Shown: piece after piece, positions 33,351 to 42,843 of the stretch
How the letters are laid out: each line of letters opens with the position of its first letter
How positions within the stretch are numbered: the stretch's first letter is position 1
Source of the DNA: an uncultured Lachnospiraceae bacterium
Lineage (GTDB): Bacteria > Bacillota > Clostridia > Lachnospirales > Lachnospiraceae
Length of the DNA: 43,655 nucleotides
Assembly: GCA_944380065.1 (NCBI GenBank)
Contig: CALWGM010000039.1
Coordinates: forward strand, 1 to 43,655
Direction of reading: 5' to 3'
The notes under the pieces: model-generated
Told to the model about the DNA's origin: nothing
Databases searched by the model: none
The model's input: the letters and a program-made list of their open reading frames with translations, nothing else
Program-made: the position numbers and the translations under genes

Positions 33351-36140
33351 CTAATTTTCCTCCCTTCCAGTCATGCCCGGAGAATTTCCATGCTTTCTCT
33401 GTCCAGACCATCTCCTTGTTATTCACATCCTTGTACAGCTCCGTCTTACGCCCTGCGCCTTCCGGTGCCTGTACCGGGGCGTTCCAGCTTTCCTTTTCTT
33501 CCGCTCCGCCATGGTTCTTGTCCAGCGGTTTCTCCTGATAACCCTCTAACTCCTTTTTATCCCATTTCTCAATTTCCACCAGGCAATGCTCGGTAGCCAT
33601 ACCGCTGGCATACTTGGAAAGGAACCGGGACGGGGTCAGGATATTAATACATCCGCCTCTGTCCACAGAATGTCCGGGTTCGCCCAGAGGCTTATACTCT
33701 GCGGAAGATTCATAGCAGTGGCAGGTTCCTTCCGGAACACGCTCAGTAAGCTGGGCCGCGAAAATAACAGCGCCTCTTTCGTTGTACGCTTTGATCAGGT
33801 CGTTTTCCTTAATTCCGCGTGTGCATCTGCCGGATTCATACGCATGATCCAGTAATAGAACCCGTCAATCAGGACACGGTGATTTTCCACATCATTGATA
33901 AAGGAATCTTTTCCGTCTCCCTGTGTATGGAAACTGAATCTAGGATGCGGCGACAGAACCGCCAGCGGATACTTTTTAAACCGCGGTGTATGATGTCCCT
34001 CCCAGGACGGAATGTAAATCGGCATCAGCGGCCGCTCCTTGTCATCGGTATCATAATGGCCGAAACGCTTTAAGCTGTTGGAAACGAACTCTACTTTTCC
34101 GGACTGCGTCTGCAATCCTTTCTGGTCTACCAGGTCGCCGGGACGGAAATGGGAAATCCATCCCCTGGTATCCTGCTCGCGGTCTTCCGCGAACCAGCGC
34201 AGAGCCGGGGCAGCCGGTTTCCTCTCATCATTGGGAACGATGAAATACCCCTTCTCAAAGAATTTTTCCCAGGTTACCACCTTCGGCAGGTCAGAAGCAT
34301 AAAACATCTGTTTCACCCAGCCAAGCTCGGTCTTTCCTTCTGAGAAGACATCCCCCACATGCAGCCGCTCGCAGATCGCATTAAAGATTTCATAATCCGA
34401 CATGGACTCGCCCAGCGGATGGATACATTTCTTCTGCATCGTAATGACACGGTGATTGGCCTGATTGTGGGAATCCGGGTTATAGCCTGAGTTGCTTGCC
34501 CACTCGCCGATATCCCAGCGCTCGAAGTTTGTACATGCCGGCAGGATGATATCTGCAAACGGAACCTCTCCCTCAAACCAGATGGACTGGCTGACTACAA
34601 ACGGAAGTTTCTTGGTGCGGTACATTCTCGCATAACGGTCTCCCTGTCCCATGGTTCCAATGTGGGAGCCGCCGTATTTATACAGCATCTGGATCCTGGA
34701 GTAGCCGTTTGCCGGATACTCATATTTATGGAACTGCTGCTCCTGCGAATCACCGACAAAACCTCTGCCCCACCATTCCACATGGTCGTCCAGCACGCAT
34801 TCCGGCAGTCTCATACGGTCGATATGCACGCCTGCCGCCGTACTCAGGTTGGAAGTCATGGGCTTACTGTTGACGCCGTCAAACATCTTATACGCAAACA
34901 CAGCGCCGGCCGCAGAGTTTGCGGAATCTCCGCAGATACCTCCATCCGCATATCCGGGGAAGTAGAAATCAGAATCCACGGGAACACCCTGTGTCGTACT
35001 GTAGATGTTGATTCCCGGTTTTCCCATACCCTGCATCGTAATCAGGGCTACCATCAGACGGGCCCAGTCCATACCGATGGGGCTCCGGCAGACGCCGCCC
35101 CATCCGCCAAGTCCGCCGGCTGCCAGCATGGTCTTATTCTTTGCCCATTCCCTTGCCAGCGCACGGATTTCACGGGCGGGGATCCCGCACTCTTCTGCCG
35201 CCCATTCCGCAGTCTTGGGCGTAGAATCTGTCACACCCAGCACATAATCTTTCCACTCATCAAAGCCATACGTATGGGTGGCAACATATTCTTTGTCATA
35301 TGTCCCCTCTGTCAGCCAGGTATAGGCAATTCCCAGAGCCAGCGCACTGTCGGTTCCCAGACGGGGTGAAAACCACTTTCCGCCGTACAGACCGTTGGTG
35401 TGATTATAATAAGGATCGATAAATACCATTTTCACGCCCAGCTCCTTCAGCCATTTCCGGCGGATGGTACTTTCGTAAGCCCCGTAAATACCATTGTTGG
35501 TCTCCGGATCAGAGGACCAGAACACCATCATTTCACAATTCTGCAGACAATCCTCCAAAAGGTCTGTCTGCTCCGGATTGCCCAATCTTGCCGTGAAGCC
35601 CCACATATGGGTCGCGCCCCAGTGCCAGCCTTCCCAGGAGTCCGGGTTGTGATCCCCGTAGGTCATTCCCGTGGCATTCATAAAACGGAACAATGTACTG
35701 TGACGGTATCCCACCGTTCCCCACAAATGATGGGAACTGGGCTCAATAACCATCGCTCCCGGGCCATAATCCCGTTTAATCCTGCGGATTTCATTACAGA
35801 CAATGTCCAGGGCCTCATCCCAGCTGATTCTCTCATAACCGGATATTCCCCGGTTTTCCTCATGCCTGTCCCCGTTCGGATCAAAGTCTACACGTTTCAT
35901 GGGATACAGGTTGCGGCGGTCTGAATAAATCATGGATTTAAACTGCGCCGTAAATGCCGTGTAAGTTGTTTTTCTCGGCGGTGTAAATACTTTGCCCCGT
36001 GCCTCAATCGAATAAGAAGCCGCGTCGTCGTCATCCAGATCCATCGGAGTGATACGGACAATCTTATCCTGCTCTTCGTCAACGTAGACAAACACCGGAC
36101 CGCCGGTTGTCATCTGTGTTTTTCTGACCAGATTTCCCAT
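33343..36140 (-). pseudogene. Pyrogallol-phloroglucinol transhydroxylase alpha subunit (Mo-bis-MGD), frameshifted
   Basis: The DMSO-reductase-family large subunit would move a hydroxyl group on pyrogallol to give phloroglucinol, with 1,2,3,5-tetrahydroxybenzene as co-substrate. The first reading frame runs 36140-33795 (781 residues) and ends in an unrelated tail (ELRKTT) after MNPADAHA. The -1 frame continues directly from about 33816 to TAA at 33343-33345 with GIKENDLIKAYNERG... and RGGCINILTPSRF, the missing C-terminal molybdopterin-binding part. Together they form about 932 residues. Residues that match the active site of the Pelobacter enzyme are present at a constant offset of 7: H137, Y145, R146, D167, S168, W169, and Y396 fits Tyr404. 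The lesion fits loss of 1 or 4 bases in a GC-repeat at about 33817-33821. It is a real pseudogene, a polymorphism or an assembly error. ATG 36140 follows AAGGAG. Confidence 0.85.
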
Positions 36141-36266: not shown

Positions 36267-36935
36267 ATGTCCGCCCCGTTCCGGCAAAACAGCGGCCTGC
36301 GTCCCTGTCCTTTTTCCTTTCGGACGTGCCTCCGAAAATGCAACCGGTTACTTGCATCCGGTTCTTACTATACACGCCTGTTTTTTGCTGTTCTGCACAA
36401 TTATACGAAATCCTGGATTTTAGATGCCGCAGCGATTCTTTTTACACAGAACGGCTTTACCAAGACAACAACAAAAGCGATCGCGGAGCTGGCCGGCGTC
36501 AGTGAATCTACCTTTTTCCGCATATACAAAAGCAAGGCCGCCCTGCTCAGCGACCTTCTCTACATCATGACGCCCGGCCCGGAAGACATCCCCATGAAGG
36601 AGATGACCAACGGCACAGACATCCGCAAAGATTTTGAATTATTTCTCTATCACAACGCCCTCCTGCATGTACGGCACCTCCCTGTTTTCCGGCTGGCCAT
36701 GCATGTGGAGGAGATTTATGACAAGTCCCGGTTTTCCAAAATCGAAGGGATGATCTCGCAAATGGCCGGGTATTTTCACCATTTACAGGAAATCGGTTTT
36801 CTCATTGAGTTCGATTACCGCGCACTGGCAGAACATGTCAACAGCCTGGCGCTGGTAAAGGCCAATGAATTTGTGACAGGTGAGATCTACGGCATTCCCA
36901 TGGAACAATCAGTCCGCGCCTTTGCGCAGCAATAA
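36267..36935 (+). CDS. TetR-family regulator with unclear 5' end
   Basis: The last about 175 residues form a TetR-type protein: helix-turn-helix ILDAAAILFTQNGFTKTTTKAIAELAGVSESTFFRIYKSK (in pieces, near residues 51-92), then an all-helical ligand domain. Normal TetR proteins start about 10 residues before ILDAAA, but here the only start codon in frame is ATG 36267, some 50 residues earlier, with no ribosome-binding site and with a basic, cysteine-rich, non-TetR-like leader. A true start is missing, so the gene may be damaged at its 5' end. It diverges from the transhydroxylase alpha gene and would be its natural repressor; repeat elements at 36338-36366 lie between them. Ligand unknown. Confidence 0.7.
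   Translation: MSAPFRQNSGLRPCPFSFRTCLRKCNRLLASGSYYTRLFFAVLHNYTKSWILDAAAILFTQNGFTKTTTKAIAELAGVSESTFFRIYKSKAALLSDLLYIMTPGPEDIPMKEMTNGTDIRKDFELFLYHNALLHVRHLPVFRLAMHVEEIYDKSRFSKIEGMISQMAGYFHHLQEIGFLIEFDYRALAEHVNSLALVKANEFVTGEIYGIPMEQSVRAFAQQ
36338..36366. promoter_or_regulatory. Operator-like repeats upstream of the TetR helix-turn-helix
   Basis: Two 13-14-base direct repeats, GCAACCGGTTACTT (36340-36353) and GCATCCGGTTCTT (36354-36366), follow one another; the first is part of an inverted repeat ATGCAA...TTGCAT (36338-36357). They lie between the transhydroxylase and TetR coding parts, the normal place for a TetR operator. Confidence 0.4.
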
Positions 36936-37217
36936 ATCTGACATGATCCGAAAATCATTATGGAGATTCAGATAACTGAGTTTCCGGTTCAGATCCTCGC
37001 TGTCGAACGCAAAGCTTCTGTACCGCTCCACCACCTGCAGAAAAAGTCCCAGCTTATCTTCAAAATGGCGGAATACAGTCACCGTATTACATCCCGCACG
37101 GCTGCTGATATCCCGAATGGTAGCTGCCGAATAACCCTTTTCAGAAAACACTTCCAGCGCACTCTTTAAGATTCTTTCATGCATTTCATTGACATTTCCG
37201 TACCTTGCCATTTTCAC
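36909..37217 (-). CDS. Truncated TetR-family regulator (102 aa)
   Basis: The N-terminal DNA-binding half of a TetR protein is present: RILKSALEVFSEKGYSAATIRDISSRAGCNTVTVFRHFEDK (in pieces, about residues 15-56). After about 100 residues the frame ends (LLLRKGAD), where TetR proteins usually have 90 or more further residues. The 3' end overlaps the convergent TetR gene by 27 bases, so its C-terminal part has probably been lost. The start is GTG 37217 or ATG 37211, neither with a strong ribosome site. Whether the fragment binds DNA is open: TetR proteins need the missing part to dimerise. Confidence 0.6.
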   Translation of the reverse strand: MKMARYGNVNEMHERILKSALEVFSEKGYSAATIRDISSRAGCNTVTVFRHFEDKLGLFLQVVERYRSFAFDSEDLNRKLSYLNLHNDFRIMSDLLLRKGAD

Positions 37218-37408: not shown

Positions 37409-37481
37409 GCTTCGATGGCTCAGTTGGTAGAGCGACGCACTCGTAATGCGTATGTCGTTGGTTCGAGTCCCATTCGAAGCT
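37409..37481 (+). tRNA. tRNA-Thr (anticodon CGU)
   Basis: The acceptor stem GCTTCGA (37409-37415) pairs with TCGAAGC (37474-37480); D arm GCTC-AGTTGGTA-GAGC; anticodon stem ACGCA/TGCGT (37435-37439 and 37447-37451) with loop CTCGTAA, anticodon CGT; T loop TTCGAGT at 37462-37468. The T stem (GTTGG/CCCAT) has one mismatched and one G-T pair, weaker than normal. CCA is not encoded; base 73 is T. It decodes ACG. Confidence 0.93.
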
Positions 37482-37503: not shown

Positions 37504-37538
37504 ACAAAAATCCCCGGCGGATCGCCGGGGATTTTTGT
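37504..37538 (+). terminator. Terminator of the tRNA-Thr gene
   Basis: Perfect 16-bp arms 37504-37519 and 37523-37538 (AATCCCCGGCG core) with a 3-base loop; the 3' arm ends in ATTTTTGT. Confidence 0.9.
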
Positions 37539-37541
37539 ATT

Positions 37542-37567
37542 GTTACTGTCACTTCGTTCACAGTAAC
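37542..37567. repeat. Second copy of palindromic repeat unit 1
   Basis: Arms GTTACTGT (37542-37549) and ACAGTAAC (37560-37567), the same as unit 1 at 3698-3724, with loop CACTTCGTTC against TCACTCCGTTC there. It occurs directly behind the tRNA terminator. Confidence 0.7.
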
Positions 37568-37607
37568 TCTGTATTTTCAGACAGTAGTTTTTCCGGATGT
37601 TCCGTAC

Positions 37608-37636
37608 TTGCACTCTCTGTCTGTCCGCAGTATAAT
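37608..37636 (+). promoter_or_regulatory. Promoter of the candidate ncRNA
   Basis: TTGCAC (37608-37613) and a perfect TATAAT (37631-37636) are spaced by exactly 17 bases. The expected start, 7 bases after the -10, is G37643, the first base of the outer stem. Confidence 0.75.
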
Positions 37637-37642
37637 AAATCC

Positions 37643-37746
37643 GGCGCCAGTTCCGGGAGGAGTGCGGTTTTGCCCGTATCGCCGGTGTCCAGGTTCACAC
37701 TCATCGACATTCCCGTGGAACACGCGGCGGCTGGCGCCTTTTTTTT
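37643..37746 (+). ncRNA. Candidate structured small RNA of about 100 nt, not recognised
   Basis: An outer helix P1 pairs GGCGCCAG (37643-37650) with CTGGCGCC (37731-37738) and is followed by eight T (37739-37746), an intrinsic-terminator layout. Inside, P2 pairs CGGG (37654-37657) with CCCG (37673-37676), and P3 pairs CGCCG-GTGT-CC (37680-37690) with the segment 37717-37729 over 11 bp with bulged A37719 and G37724; P3 closes a 26-base loop. The three helices would form a three-way junction. A promoter with ideal spacing lies directly upstream and predicts the start at the first P1 base. No convincing ORF or ribosome site is present. It lacks the SRP apical motif and I do not recognise any riboswitch core. 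The downstream protein gene is on the opposite strand, so it is not a cis leader. Confidence 0.6.
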
Positions 37747-37776
37747 CATCACAGTGATCGGAGTTTTTCTTTTTTC

Positions 37777-37797
37777 ATCCCGGCAGCATGCCGGGAT
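37777..37797. terminator. Hairpin after the ABC_ATPase gene
   Basis: ATCCCGGCA (37777-37785) and TGCCGGGAT (37789-37797) form a 9-bp stem with a 3-base loop, 10 bases past the ATPase gene stop. On the minus strand no U-tract follows, so termination strength is doubtful. Confidence 0.45.
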
Positions 37798-37807
37798 CTA
37801 TTTTACC

Positions 37808-39517
37808 TTATCCCCGGAACCGGTTCAGCATCGCGTAAATCTCCTGAATTCTCGGCTGCGCATAGCCGCAGAACGCATACCCTTCCATAAAGCCTTCCAG
37901 TCCCTTCTGCTTCAGCAGACGCTCCAGCAATTCCGCCAGCTGTTTCACACTGACAGGGGAAGTCACCTGCTTTACCAGATATTTCATCATCCCGGCCAGC
38001 GCCGCCGTCTGCTCGCTGTCCGTAATCTGCTCCACATAGCGCAGATCTACCATCTCATGGTTGATGGAAAAACCATCGGTGGACATGACTTTTGTCTTGA
38101 TGCGATCCTCCCGCCCCCGGGGACCGGATGGCCTGGCCGCCTTTCCCCTGGGCAGAGCCCAGAACCGGCGGGACTTCTCCGGCAGGACAAAAGCGCCCAC
38201 TTCAAATTCCGGCAGCGGATAATCCTTCAGGTACTGATCCACCTTTTCCTTCACATCCAGCGGACAGTAGGCGTCCATCTGGATCACGGTGTCCGCCATA
38301 TGGAAGAAAGCGCCGCTGCTGCCCGCCACTAAGACCGTGGAAATCCCTGCTTTCTCATACAGGTCGCGTACCCGGGCACAGAACGGCGTGATGGGCTCCT
38401 TATCTCCGTGGACGATCTTCTGCATAAATTCATCCCGCACTAAGAAATTGGTGGCAGATGTGTCCTCGTCAATCAGGAAGGTGCGGCTGCCTGCCTCGAT
38501 TCCTTCCATCACTGCCGCAGCCTGGGAGGTACTGCCGCTGGCATCCTCGGTGGAGAAATTTTTCGTATCCTTCCCGTTGGGCAGATTATGGATAAACAGG
38601 GACAGATCCAGATTCTGCACCGAACGGCCGTCCTCCGCCCGCAGCTTCACAGCCGTATTTTCTGTGATCACATACTCCCTGCCGTCCCCGGCAATGTGAT
38701 TGTACACCCCCTGCTCCAGAGCCTGCAAAAGCGTTGATTTCCCGTGATAGCCGCCGCCGATAATCAGCGTCACGCCCTCCGGGATCCCCATTCCGGCAAT
38801 CTTCCCTTTACAGGGCAGCTCCATCTCCACCCGCAGAGTTTCCGGCACGGTAAGCGGCACCGCATCCTTTAACGGCCGGCTGGACACTCCGCTCATCCGG
38901 GGCAGAATACTTCCCTCCGCCAGAAAAGCCACTAAGTTCCGCCGGGGCAGCTCCTGCCGGATAAAATTCTGATCCACCGACAGCTCATAATTTTCCTGCA
39001 GTATCTCCTTTTTCCAGCTCCGGAAATAAAAACACTGCACCACCACCGGCGGGAGAAAATCAAACAGAATCTTTTCCAGTTCATACGCATTGATCGTACG
39101 CCCATTGGCCGGAAATCCCACCTCAAAACGGGCAGTCACACTTTTTTCCGTTATTTCCAGCGCTGTCCGGCGCAGAATCTCCTGCCCGGGGCGGCTGGTG
39201 GCGATCAGGCCGCTCTTTCCGGATCCCTTTGCCTTAAAGCTGTAATCCTGCAGTTTTTTCGCAAACCGCCGCAGCAGACAGTCTTCCAGGGCTGTCCTGG
39301 CATACGCTTCCTTCCAGTACAATTCCGGGAATCCCGCCTTTTTCATGGGAACCGCCACACTGACATTGGACGGGGACGCGAACGGATCCCCCTGCACATG
39401 GTCGATGGATAACACATAATCCCCAAAATCATACTGGCCCCGCAGATCTTTGTAAGCGGGATAGCTCTTTCTGTGAATCCGCTCCAGCTCCTGTCTTAAC
39501 TCTGTTTTTGATTTCAA
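37808..39517 (-). CDS. ABC_ATPase-domain protein (PF09818-like)
   Basis: The 569-residue protein has one central ABC-like ATPase core: Walker A IIGGGYHGKST (about residue 255), a signature-like STEDASGSTSQAAAVMEGIEAG, and Walker B with ATP-switch residues TFLIDEDTSATNF. An N-terminal domain of about 200 residues (DFGDYVLSIDHVQGDPFASPS..., FPANGRTI) precedes it. This is the soluble family sometimes mis-called isopentenyl-diphosphate isomerase; eukaryotic kinetoplastid homologues bind RNA. There are no membrane segments. The start is TTG 39517, 8 bases after GGAG; the ATG between them is out of frame. Function is unknown; RNA or nucleic-acid binding is a guess from homologues. Confidence 0.85.
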   Translation of the reverse strand: MKSKTELRQELERIHRKSYPAYKDLRGQYDFGDYVLSIDHVQGDPFASPSNVSVAVPMKKAGFPELYWKEAYARTALEDCLLRRFAKKLQDYSFKAKGSGKSGLIATSRPGQEILRRTALEITEKSVTARFEVGFPANGRTINAYELEKILFDFLPPVVVQCFYFRSWKKEILQENYELSVDQNFIRQELPRRNLVAFLAEGSILPRMSGVSSRPLKDAVPLTVPETLRVEMELPCKGKIAGMGIPEGVTLIIGGGYHGKSTLLQALEQGVYNHIAGDGREYVITENTAVKLRAEDGRSVQNLDLSLFIHNLPNGKDTKNFSTEDASGSTSQAAAVMEGIEAGSRTFLIDEDTSATNFLVRDEFMQKIVHGDKEPITPFCARVRDLYEKAGISTVLVAGSSGAFFHMADTVIQMDAYCPLDVKEKVDQYLKDYPLPEFEVGAFVLPEKSRRFWALPRGKAARPSGPRGREDRIKTKVMSTDGFSINHEMVDLRYVEQITDSEQTAALAGMMKYLVKQVTSPVSVKQLAELLERLLKQKGLEGFMEGYAFCGYAQPRIQEIYAMLNRFRG

Positions 39518-39580
39518 AGCTCATACTCCTTTCCCGGGCTGCGCCCGCCGGATATTCCGAAAACCTCTCTTTACCTGAAA

Positions 39581-39612
39581 ACGGGGCATATGCACATCTA
39601 CATATGCCCCGT
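39581..39612 (-). terminator. Terminator after dnaJ
   Basis: Perfect 12-bp arms ACGGGGCATATG (39581-39592) and CATATGCCCCGT (39601-39612) with an 8-base loop; on the minus strand TTTTC follows. It ends the hrcA-grpE-dnaK-dnaJ operon, about 75 bases past the dnaJ stop. Confidence 0.8.
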
Positions 39613-39687
39613 CATTGCTTCCTGAATCCTCGCGCCCTTTCCCCGGGCGCATTTTCCTGATCAGACCGGCGTATCCTGCACGCCGTA

Positions 39688-40854
39688 TCAATTCTGATTC
39701 TTATTAAAGAACCCTTTCTTTTTATGTTTCTCATGTTTGGCCGGACCCTCGGATCCCTTTGCCAGGGTGTTGCCGGCAACCGCGTCGAAAGCACGCAGCG
39801 CCTCTTTGGCCTCCGCAGTCAGGTTGGTGGGCACCTGCACGATCAGGGTCACATAGTGGTCGCCGCGGTTATTCTTATTCCGCAGGGACGGAACTCCTTT
39901 TCCTTTCAGCCGGATCCTGGTATCTGTCTGGGTTCCCGGCTTCACCTCGTAGATCACATCGCCGTCCACGGTGTGGATCCGGGTCTCACCGCCCAGAACC
40001 GCCTGCGCGTAGGAAATCGGCGCCGTGGAATAAATGTTCATTCCCTCCCGCTGGAAAACAGGATGCGGGGATACCACAACCTCTACCAGCAGATCGCCTC
40101 TGGGGCCGCCGTTGATGCCCGGCTCGCCCTTATCGCGGATGCGGACACTCTGGCCGTTGTCAATACCGGCCGGAATATTGACCTTGATCCGCTTTCTGGA
40201 GGAAACATAACCGGTTCCGCGGCAGTCCGGGCATTTCTCACGGATGATCTTTCCGGTTCCGCGGCAGTCCGGACACTCACGCACATTCTGCACCATACCA
40301 AACAGGGACTGCTGGGAAAAAACCACCTTTCCCTTGCCGCCGCACTTGGAACAGGTCTCCGGGGAAGTCCCCGGCTTTGCACCTGTGCCGTGGCAGTTGG
40401 TACACTCATCCTTCAATACCAGCTCAATCTCCTTCTCACATCCGAAAACAGCCTCCTCAAATGTGATCCTGACGCTGGTCCTTAAATTGGCGCCCTTCAT
40501 GGGGCCGTTGCTGTTTCTCCTGGAACCGCCGCCAAAGAAATCGCCAAAAATGTCGCCGAACATATCGCTGAAATCCATGCCGGAGAAATCAAAACCGCCC
40601 GCCCCGGCTCCGCCAGCGCCGCCTTCAAAGGCTGCATGGCCGAACTGATCATACTGGCGTCTCTTCTCCGAATCGGAAAGCACGGCATACGCCTCGGAAG
40701 CTTCTTTAAACTTGGCCTCCGCCTCTTTATCTCCCGGATTGGCATCCGGATGGTATTTTTTTGCCAGCTGCCGGTACGCTTTCTTTATGGTCGCTTCGTC
40801 AGCCCCGCGGTCCACACCTAAGACCTCATAATAATCTCTTTTCTGTTCTGCCAT
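39688..40854 (-). CDS. dnaJ: Chaperone protein DnaJ
   Basis: The 388-residue protein is a type I Hsp40: J domain (residues 5-70) with the HPD motif in [10 protein letters not shown], a Gly/Phe-rich stretch ([16 protein letters not shown]...), and a zinc domain with four CxxCxGxG repeats ([24 protein letters not shown] twice). It brings unfolded clients to DnaK and stimulates its ATPase. It is the last gene of the operon; gap to dnaK is 87 bases and holds a hairpin. Confidence 0.98.
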
Positions 40855-40881
40855 AACAATCCCTCTACTTTATCCAATGAT

Positions 40882-40910
40882 GCACCAGGAAGCAGTCTGC
40901 CTCCTGGTGC
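40882..40910 (-). other. Intra-operon hairpin between dnaK and dnaJ
   Basis: GCACCAGGA (40882-40890) and TCCTGGTGC (40902-40910) form a 9-bp stem with an 11-base loop. No U-tract follows on the minus strand, so it is more likely an mRNA stability or processing element that lowers dnaJ relative to dnaK. Confidence 0.5.
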
Positions 40911-40941
40911 CTGATTTATCCGCCAATGTGCGTCTTATCTT

Positions 40942-42843
<1,902 letters not shown>

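Follow-up and report, generated by a model that had tools for sequence, protein, structure and literature searches.

Among the described RNAs closest to the gene reported here, 6S RNA is a free-standing, structured RNA which acts by protein binding, the small SRP RNA of bacteria consists of one long hairpin, and bacterial Y RNA is a small, partly tRNA-like RNA with a closing helix which works with Ro60. The small RNAs encoded by enterobacterial phages are, to our knowledge, not compact four-way junctions. They belong to temperate phages and act on host RNAs (PMC4104026). GOLLD and ROOL RNAs are precedents for RNAs associated with phages and tRNAs, and many GOLLD RNAs exceed 800 nt (PMC12286853). 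The abiF RNA motif (RF03085) is described in PMC12373285 as phage-encoded and structured, with a promoter and a terminator of its own.

We analyzed a window of 43,655 nucleotides (the whole stretch of DNA under study, from an uncultured Lachnospiraceae bacterium), which contains a compact RNA of about 100 nt. It is almost certainly a conserved RNA gene, and all tests that were made place it in a new RNA family, which is unmatched in Rfam 15 and shows strong covariation. It resembles 6S RNA (RF00013) in being free-standing and structured, but the 6S model has 187 positions and the genome of the window (G000) carries its own 6S RNA at G000:C99. A size of about 100 nt and a free-standing position are shared with SRP RNA (RF00169), which is a long hairpin and not a four-way junction. 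The closing helix is also a feature of bacterial Y RNA, whose partner Ro60 was found in none of 80 genomes searched here. The enterobacterial phage sRNAs are likewise carried by phages, but act with Hfq, which was not found in the 80 genomes either. The likeness to GOLLD and ROOL is limited to way of life, as the RNA occurs in some phages and often near tRNA genes, but most of its loci show neither; GOLLD and ROOL are also much larger, whereas the RNA described here has no match in Rfam and no sign of phage at most loci. The abiF motif measures 36-37 nt and lies upstream of the abiF gene, whereas the present RNA has neither a common downstream gene nor an Rfam match.

The features of the locus are as follows (positions in the window):

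37409..37481, + strand: tRNA-Thr(CGT), upstream of the RNA (ARAGORN, Rfam)
37504..37538, + strand: terminator-like hairpin after the tRNA (context)
37608..37613, + strand: -35 element TTGCAC (read from the sequence)
37631..37636, + strand: -10 element TATAAT (read from the sequence)
37643..37746, + strand: the RNA gene, some 104 nt long and folding as a four-way junction (minimum-energy fold, covariation, covariance model)
37643..37650, + strand: 5' strand of the closing helix P1, GGCGCCAG (sequence reading, covariation)
37651..37662, + strand: P2 hairpin UUCC-GGGA-GGAG with a GNRA loop (covariation)
37663..37678, + strand: P3 hairpin UGCGG...CCGUA, tip of varying length (covariation)
37679..37730, + strand: P4 arm U.CGCCG.GUGU / ACAC.g.CGGCG.G with a one-base bulge at 37724 (covariation)
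within 37679..37730, + strand: P4 internal loop, C37689 / GA37718-37719
37690-37693 / 37713-37717, + strand: P4b stem CAGG / CC-g-UG (by eye, modest automatic test)
37731..37738, + strand: 3' strand of P1, CTGGCGCC, pairing with GGCGCCAG (sequence reading, covariation)
37739..37746, + strand: eight-T tract (read from the sequence)
37808..39517, - strand: gene of an ABC-class ATPase (PF09818), not conserved beside the RNA

The elements upstream of the RNA are arranged as TTGCAC, 17 nt, TATAAT, 6 nt and P1. An earlier note on this DNA, made from the sequence alone, had the RNA begin with the seventh base downstream of the -10 element, which the 6-nt gap confirms, and the closing helix at the 5' end and the eight U at the 3' end that it described are both present in the sequence. 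The same note called the promoter ideal, which is overstated: TTGCAC agrees with TTGACA at 3 of 6 positions and a generic promoter scan did not list this promoter. A -10 element with at least 5 of 6 matches lies no more than 16 bases upstream of P1 in 109 of 119 bacterial loci among the matches listed (an exact box in 90 of the 119), compared to 15% for shuffles of the same stretch. Where the -10 element is good, its distance to P1 is 6-9 bases in 103 of the 109 listed loci. The best -35 element stands at 17-nt spacing in 91 and TTGCAT is matched at 4 or more of 6 positions in 90 of these 109 listed loci, both counts having no shuffle control. That the RNA is transcribed we infer from one feature, the conserved promoter. 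In the window copy, the eight-T tract together with P1 likely forms an intrinsic terminator. The proposal of a built-in terminator thus fits the window copy plainly but carries over to only part of the relatives, as four consecutive T no more than 12 bases beyond P1 were found in only 63 of the 119 bacterial loci among the matches listed (without a shuffle control). In relatives without a T run, the end of the RNA must be formed or trimmed in another way.

The minimum free energy of positions 37642-37747 is -46.1 kcal/mol (z -2.9), a value reached by 2 of 200 shuffles. This minimum-energy fold is a four-way junction of the helices P1 to P4. The three-way junction proposed earlier was not borne out, since four helices appear both in this fold and by covariation. 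The helices abut with zero unpaired bases between them, and P1 has a length of 8 bp in an alignment of 78 sequences. When six relatives were folded singly, five gave the four-way junction and one (L176) did not. Of the 148 loci with a parsed P2 hairpin (149 loci in total), 130 have a GNRA loop of four bases. Divergent members keep the junction and differ in their P2 loops and in P3. The distal part of P4 in the relatives consists of an internal loop C / (N)GA, the short stem P4b and an apical loop. By eye, P4b varies in step, with CAGG/CC-g-UG in the window and UCGG, UAGG, UAAG, CGG and CAG types elsewhere. In an automatic test, 18 of 25 distinct arm pairs formed at least 4 pairs (72%; shuffled mean 45%, maximum 60%), a modest support in which one parsed arm pair (L096) is a mis-parse. 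The apical loop contains conserved YCAC and AUCCC and a centre of variable length and sequence. In the 78 rows of alignment A1, column 76 is C in 78, column 77 is A in 77, column 90 is A in 74 and column 93 is C in 77, and these four columns were not fixed by the pattern that fetched the relatives.

Covariation was assessed on alignment A1, whose 78 sequences were picked for diversity from 149 parsed loci (of 150) and aligned without using the structure. Its rows were fetched partly by a pattern which fixes parts of P2, P3 and P4 (50 of 78) and partly via BLAST (28). In A1, 98.5% of 2106 pair cells are paired and two-sided changes occur at 14 of 27 pairs; none of 500 shuffles equalled the real alignment on any of five measures, and controls with a slid structure were 31-55% paired. 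P1 shows two-sided changes at 7 of 8 pairs with 97.3% of its cells paired, and P4 at 5 of 10 pairs with 99.9%. The 28 BLAST-found rows alone are paired in 98.3% of 756 cells and show two-sided changes at 13 pairs; on the three measures that were recounted, none of 500 shuffles reached their values. Compensatory changes, which the earlier note had wanted sought in relatives, are therefore plentiful, and covariation supports the helices of the new family on an alignment that was not fitted to the structure. Alignment A3, with 100 model-fitted sequences and hence biased to the structure (L099, L150, L161, L180, L183 and L187 were excluded by choice), is 98.3% paired with 19 two-sided pairs. By mutual information, the top signals are helix pairs, extensions of P3 and the neighbourhood of P4b. 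A pseudoknot search among the strongest of these signals yielded nothing else, and a search for strong covariation between the apical loop and the helices was negative. The next signals (A3 columns 11-35 and 35-136, z 3.6) possibly reflect common ancestry.

Several G.U wobble pairs are conserved as such. At the junction, two U.G pairs are UG in 28 of 28 and 27 of 28 BLAST-found rows, and a G.U pair of P3 is GU in 26 of 28. In 27 divergent members found by the model, the junction wobbles are UG in 25 of the 25 with letters and in 22 of 27, and the P3 wobble is relaxed (GU 13, AU 9, GC 5). A G.U pair in RNA corresponds to a G.T mismatch in DNA and to A.C on the opposite strand. The conserved wobbles therefore show that selection acts on the + strand as RNA. 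In the RNAalifold structure the two outermost junction wobbles exchange partners, again giving U.G and G.U, so that more than one junction pairing may be possible. The paired stems next to the junction are near invariant: UC/GA of P2 and GUGU/ACAC of P4 are present in 28 of 28 BLAST-found rows and kept in 24-27 of the 27 divergent members.

Rfam at gathering thresholds and ARAGORN gave only the tRNA-Thr(CGT) at 37409-37481 in the whole window. At E ≤ 10 on positions 37560-37800 the RNA is unmatched, with two matches on the other strand far under the cut-off, and at E ≤ 1 on 20 divergent members only tRNAs and sub-threshold matches appeared, none of them on the RNA. The Rfam match which the earlier note had named as a refutation was thus looked for and not obtained, and its view that no SRP or riboswitch core is present agrees with these searches and with the SRP gene located elsewhere in the genome. 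As identities, SRP RNA and 6S RNA were rejected because their covariance models are unmatched here and the genome has a separate SRP RNA (77.7 bits) and 6S RNA (70 bits). A tRNA or tmRNA was rejected on the ARAGORN and Rfam results, and GOLLD and ROOL because their Rfam models are unmatched. A riboswitch or cis leader does not fit, as in 69 of 109 loci the nearest downstream gene is oriented against the RNA and there is no common gene family; for the abiF RNA or a type III antitoxin there is neither a neighbour gene in common nor an Rfam match. A description of the RNA was not found in the literature, including a term search of the main texts of PMC8040213, PMC11109978, PMC8632094 and PMC5171806. 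Since PMC8040213 reports thousands of structured-RNA candidates, an earlier nameless listing of the RNA is possible.

For its distribution, BLASTN against 397 genomes of the same family (Lachnospiraceae) found relatives in 40 genomes at E < 1e-4, the own genome included, which is well above what chance would give. A pattern built on these relatives found at least 119 loci in named genomes. The names among the matches listed are those of Lachnospiraceae or other Clostridia, with one Oscillospiraceae, and include Blautia parvula, Parablautia muri, P. intestinalis, [Clostridium] citroniae and Hungatella hathewayi. Two loci on separate contigs, L065 and L131, belong to a single assembly. The covariance model R1, which includes the window copy and matches it with 101.8 bits (G000:C39:37640-37740), found one match each in 58 of the 397 family genomes and left 339 unmatched. 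A finer search of 39 unmatched genomes, 37 of them at least 90% complete with little contamination, recovered two clear members (E 1e-11 and 1.4e-6). As 339 of the 397 genomes are unmatched, the function of the RNA appears to be dispensable for the family overall. Model R2 matched 4 of 295 genomes sampled from the order, 2 of 291 from the class and 1 of 299 from the phylum, all in the family of the window and the own genome included each time. These model searches of genomes scored only part of the first-look candidates. Relatives outside Lachnospiraceae were not found in the three samples (295, 291 and 299 genomes, at limited sensitivity), and the RNA is likely absent outside this family. A genome of the same genus (G159) gave no match to the models. 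The DNA downstream of its relative of the ABC ATPase differs and the RNA was not found in that stretch, a comparison of the downstream side only which carries little weight.

At the lower end of the R2 scores, L195 (22.8 bits) was judged a chance match with many broken pairs, and so was L196 (21.5 bits), in which three arms fit, inside a 528-codon open frame. Matches in four further genomes were only weaker than these two. A very divergent sequence, L161:501-605 (32.6 bits), has the same P1-P3 and a different P4, and is followed directly by two tRNA genes, the first of which starts at the next base. It looks like a real divergent member, and the models probably do not cover the full breadth of the RNA family.

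The RNA was also found in phages. A search of 2.9 million viral contigs with seven patterns gave four contigs with the RNA, three copies being intact and one truncated:

L150, 7306-7400: intact phage copy, 86.8 bits
L211, 1370-1464: intact phage copy, 88.1 bits
L212, 3689-3784: intact phage copy, 86.3 bits
L210, 9192-9268: truncated phage copy, P4 arm mostly missing, 33.3 bits

All four lie on the strand opposite to the adjacent phage genes, and the intact copies are located upstream of terminase genes. In L212 the order is DNA methyltransferase, small ORF, RNA, regulator phrog_36, terminase small and terminase large; in L211 it is methyltransferase, small ORF, RNA and terminase small; in L150 it is helicase, small ORF, RNA, phrog_36 regulator, terminase small and large, and portal. 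The truncated copy is surrounded by a methyltransferase fragment, ParA, ParB, an integrase and replication genes. The RNA of L150 is preceded by the promoter TTGCAT-17-TATAAT. L211 and L212 have 152 bp in common at 94%, which comprise the RNA together with the -10 box and part of the 3' flank; their only other similarity is in two weaker stretches (99 and 66 bp, 79-80%). A loose pattern brought up another eight viral contigs (L213-L220), which are not members, with five matches of at most 14.6 bits, and blastn of the window copy against phage and plasmid records was without a match.

Some bacterial loci also carry phage-type genes. A prophage copy (L140) is surrounded by genes for terminase and helicase. 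L126 adjoins a phage-type methyltransferase and a phrog_36 regulator, the scanned part being free of structural genes, L119 adjoins ParA, ParB and methyltransferase genes, and an integrase gene is close to L094. Of the 119 bacterial loci listed, 4 share a protein with the four viral contigs at 1e-20 or better, L094 by its integrase alone; the other bacterial loci were compared only with the proteins of these four contigs. Among the loci listed, the nearest host copy of L150 is L071 (91%) and that of L211 and L212 is L053 (94-95%), and neither host locus shares a protein with the viral contigs. Since the phage copies resemble different host copies, the sequences suggest repeated exchange between phages and hosts.

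The position of the window copy between a tRNA terminator and a gene of the opposite strand, as first described, is upheld by the hairpin and the ATPase gene of the feature list. Across 120 loci, no common neighbour gene was found within 3.5 kb. The largest neighbour cluster, putative ABC ATPases as read from one sequence, is represented in 19 of the 120 loci, where its distance from the RNA varies widely and either strand is used. Upstream genes lie on the + and - strand in 55 loci each, and downstream genes in 40 and 69. This absence of a common neighbour gene supports action in trans, as the earlier note had expected. tRNA genes lie within 300 bases of the RNA in 15 of the 120 loci (16 tRNAs, 15 on the same strand), compared to 29 tRNAs in total over the 610,519 bases scanned around these loci. 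L039 begins about 4 bases after a tRNA, and L110 has a tRNA about 11 bases downstream. Further genes of the window include that of a molybdopterin oxidoreductase, at 33795-36140 on the opposite strand, whose first domain resembles pyrogallol hydroxytransferase (PF21423). Two frames at 36267-36935 and 36909-37217 encode TetR-type N-terminal domains on opposite strands and overlap by 27 bases at their 3' ends. The ABC-class ATPase gene presumably comes after genes resembling dnaK and dnaJ (37808-42825).

Two candidate protein partners were searched for in 80 family genomes, 44 with the RNA and 36 without a credible match, the own genome of the window excluded. Hfq (PF17209) was found in 0 of 80 (controls positive in 5 of 14, including E. 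coli and B. subtilis), and Ro60 (TROVE, PF05731) in 0 of the same 80 (controls positive in 1 of 14). A Hfq-dependent sRNA and a bacterial Y RNA were therefore rejected as identities. Both proteins were found in none of the 80 genomes, hence no co-occurrence with the RNA is computable and they were set aside as partners on this measure.

Taken together, the comparisons establish that the locus is a conserved gene for a structured RNA, that it has a predicted promoter of its own and an apparent trans position, and that it matches none of the families of Rfam 15. Its stability and mechanism we infer. With moderate confidence, we favour a new trans-acting RNA family which acts by binding to a protein or a larger complex and is carried by some phages as cargo. 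A sigma-70-type -10 box would set the start of the transcript at the foot of P1, and P1 with the U tract could end it in the window copy. The RNA would fold stably, persist without Hfq and be recognised mainly as a shaped object by a protein or larger complex, much as 6S RNA binds RNA polymerase or CsrB binds CsrA. The binding face may comprise the junction-adjacent stems and the P4 arm, including the C/GA internal loop and the apical loop YCAC...AUCCC. In a few phages the RNA stands under a promoter of its own, antisense to the phage genes and upstream of the terminase genes. Such carriage looks, by analogy, like cargo acting on the host, and points to a probable role in a host process which also matters to the lysogen.

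A possible but rather unlikely alternative is a base-pairing regulatory sRNA whose P4 apical loop (YCAC...UUAUCC) pairs with target mRNAs, the junction being a stable, Hfq-independent scaffold. The unpaired and conserved apical-loop bases (A1 columns 76, 77, 90 and 93) fit target pairing equally well, the loop does not covary strongly with the helices, and in genomes where Hfq was not found a structured carrier is sensible. However, the paired stems next to the junction are among the least variable positions, which favours recognition, and the centre of the loop varies in length and sequence. The RNA could also be phage-derived, serving as a phage cargo or regulator in lysogeny or against superinfecting phages, with the chromosomal copies as domesticated leftovers. 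The intact antisense copies upstream of terminase genes in three phage contigs point in this direction, as do the 152 bp common to L211 and L212 around the RNA, the copies in prophage L140 and beside the phage-type genes of L126 and the ParA, ParB and methyltransferase genes of L119, and the patchy distribution with an unmatched genome in the same genus. We consider this origin improbable, however, as seven patterns over 2.9 million viral contigs retrieved only four, few of the listed bacterial loci (4 of 119, including the integrase of L094) share a protein with them, and the intact phage copies are most similar to bacterial loci without such a protein, which would also be explained by phages picking up the RNA from hosts.

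A diverged member of a known family (SRP, 6S, tmRNA, Y RNA, riboswitch or abiF RNA) is very unlikely. Size and free-standing position resemble SRP RNA, but the Rfam searches at E ≤ 10 (window) and E ≤ 1 (20 divergent members) left the RNA unmatched, the genome has separate SRP and 6S genes, Ro60 is absent from the 80 genomes and no downstream gene is common. Hardly credible is a DNA element, such as a cruciform or an attachment site, or a chance fold instead of an RNA: the inverted repeats and the tRNA neighbours in 15 of 120 loci would suit it, but the conserved G.U wobbles, the GNRA loops, the promoter at P1 and the two-sided changes speak against it.

The favoured reading of a trans-acting, protein-binding RNA can be extended, tentatively, to a class of compact four-way-junction RNAs exchanged between gut Lachnospiraceae and their phages as a short cassette. 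Such an RNA-only cargo, borne by prophages, might retune a core host machine or guard the lysogen without Hfq, and would be chromosomal in about one sixth of the sampled species genomes. The RNA is not categorically new, since there are precedents for small orphan structured RNAs common to bacteria and phages. The sequences and the model suffice to start an Rfam family, and the phage-borne copies make the function of the RNA testable by deletion in a lysogen. The RNA family occurs in a family of common gut commensals. With Hfq found in 0 of 80 genomes, the RNAs of these bacteria must act in other ways, and the RNA described here is a concrete case.
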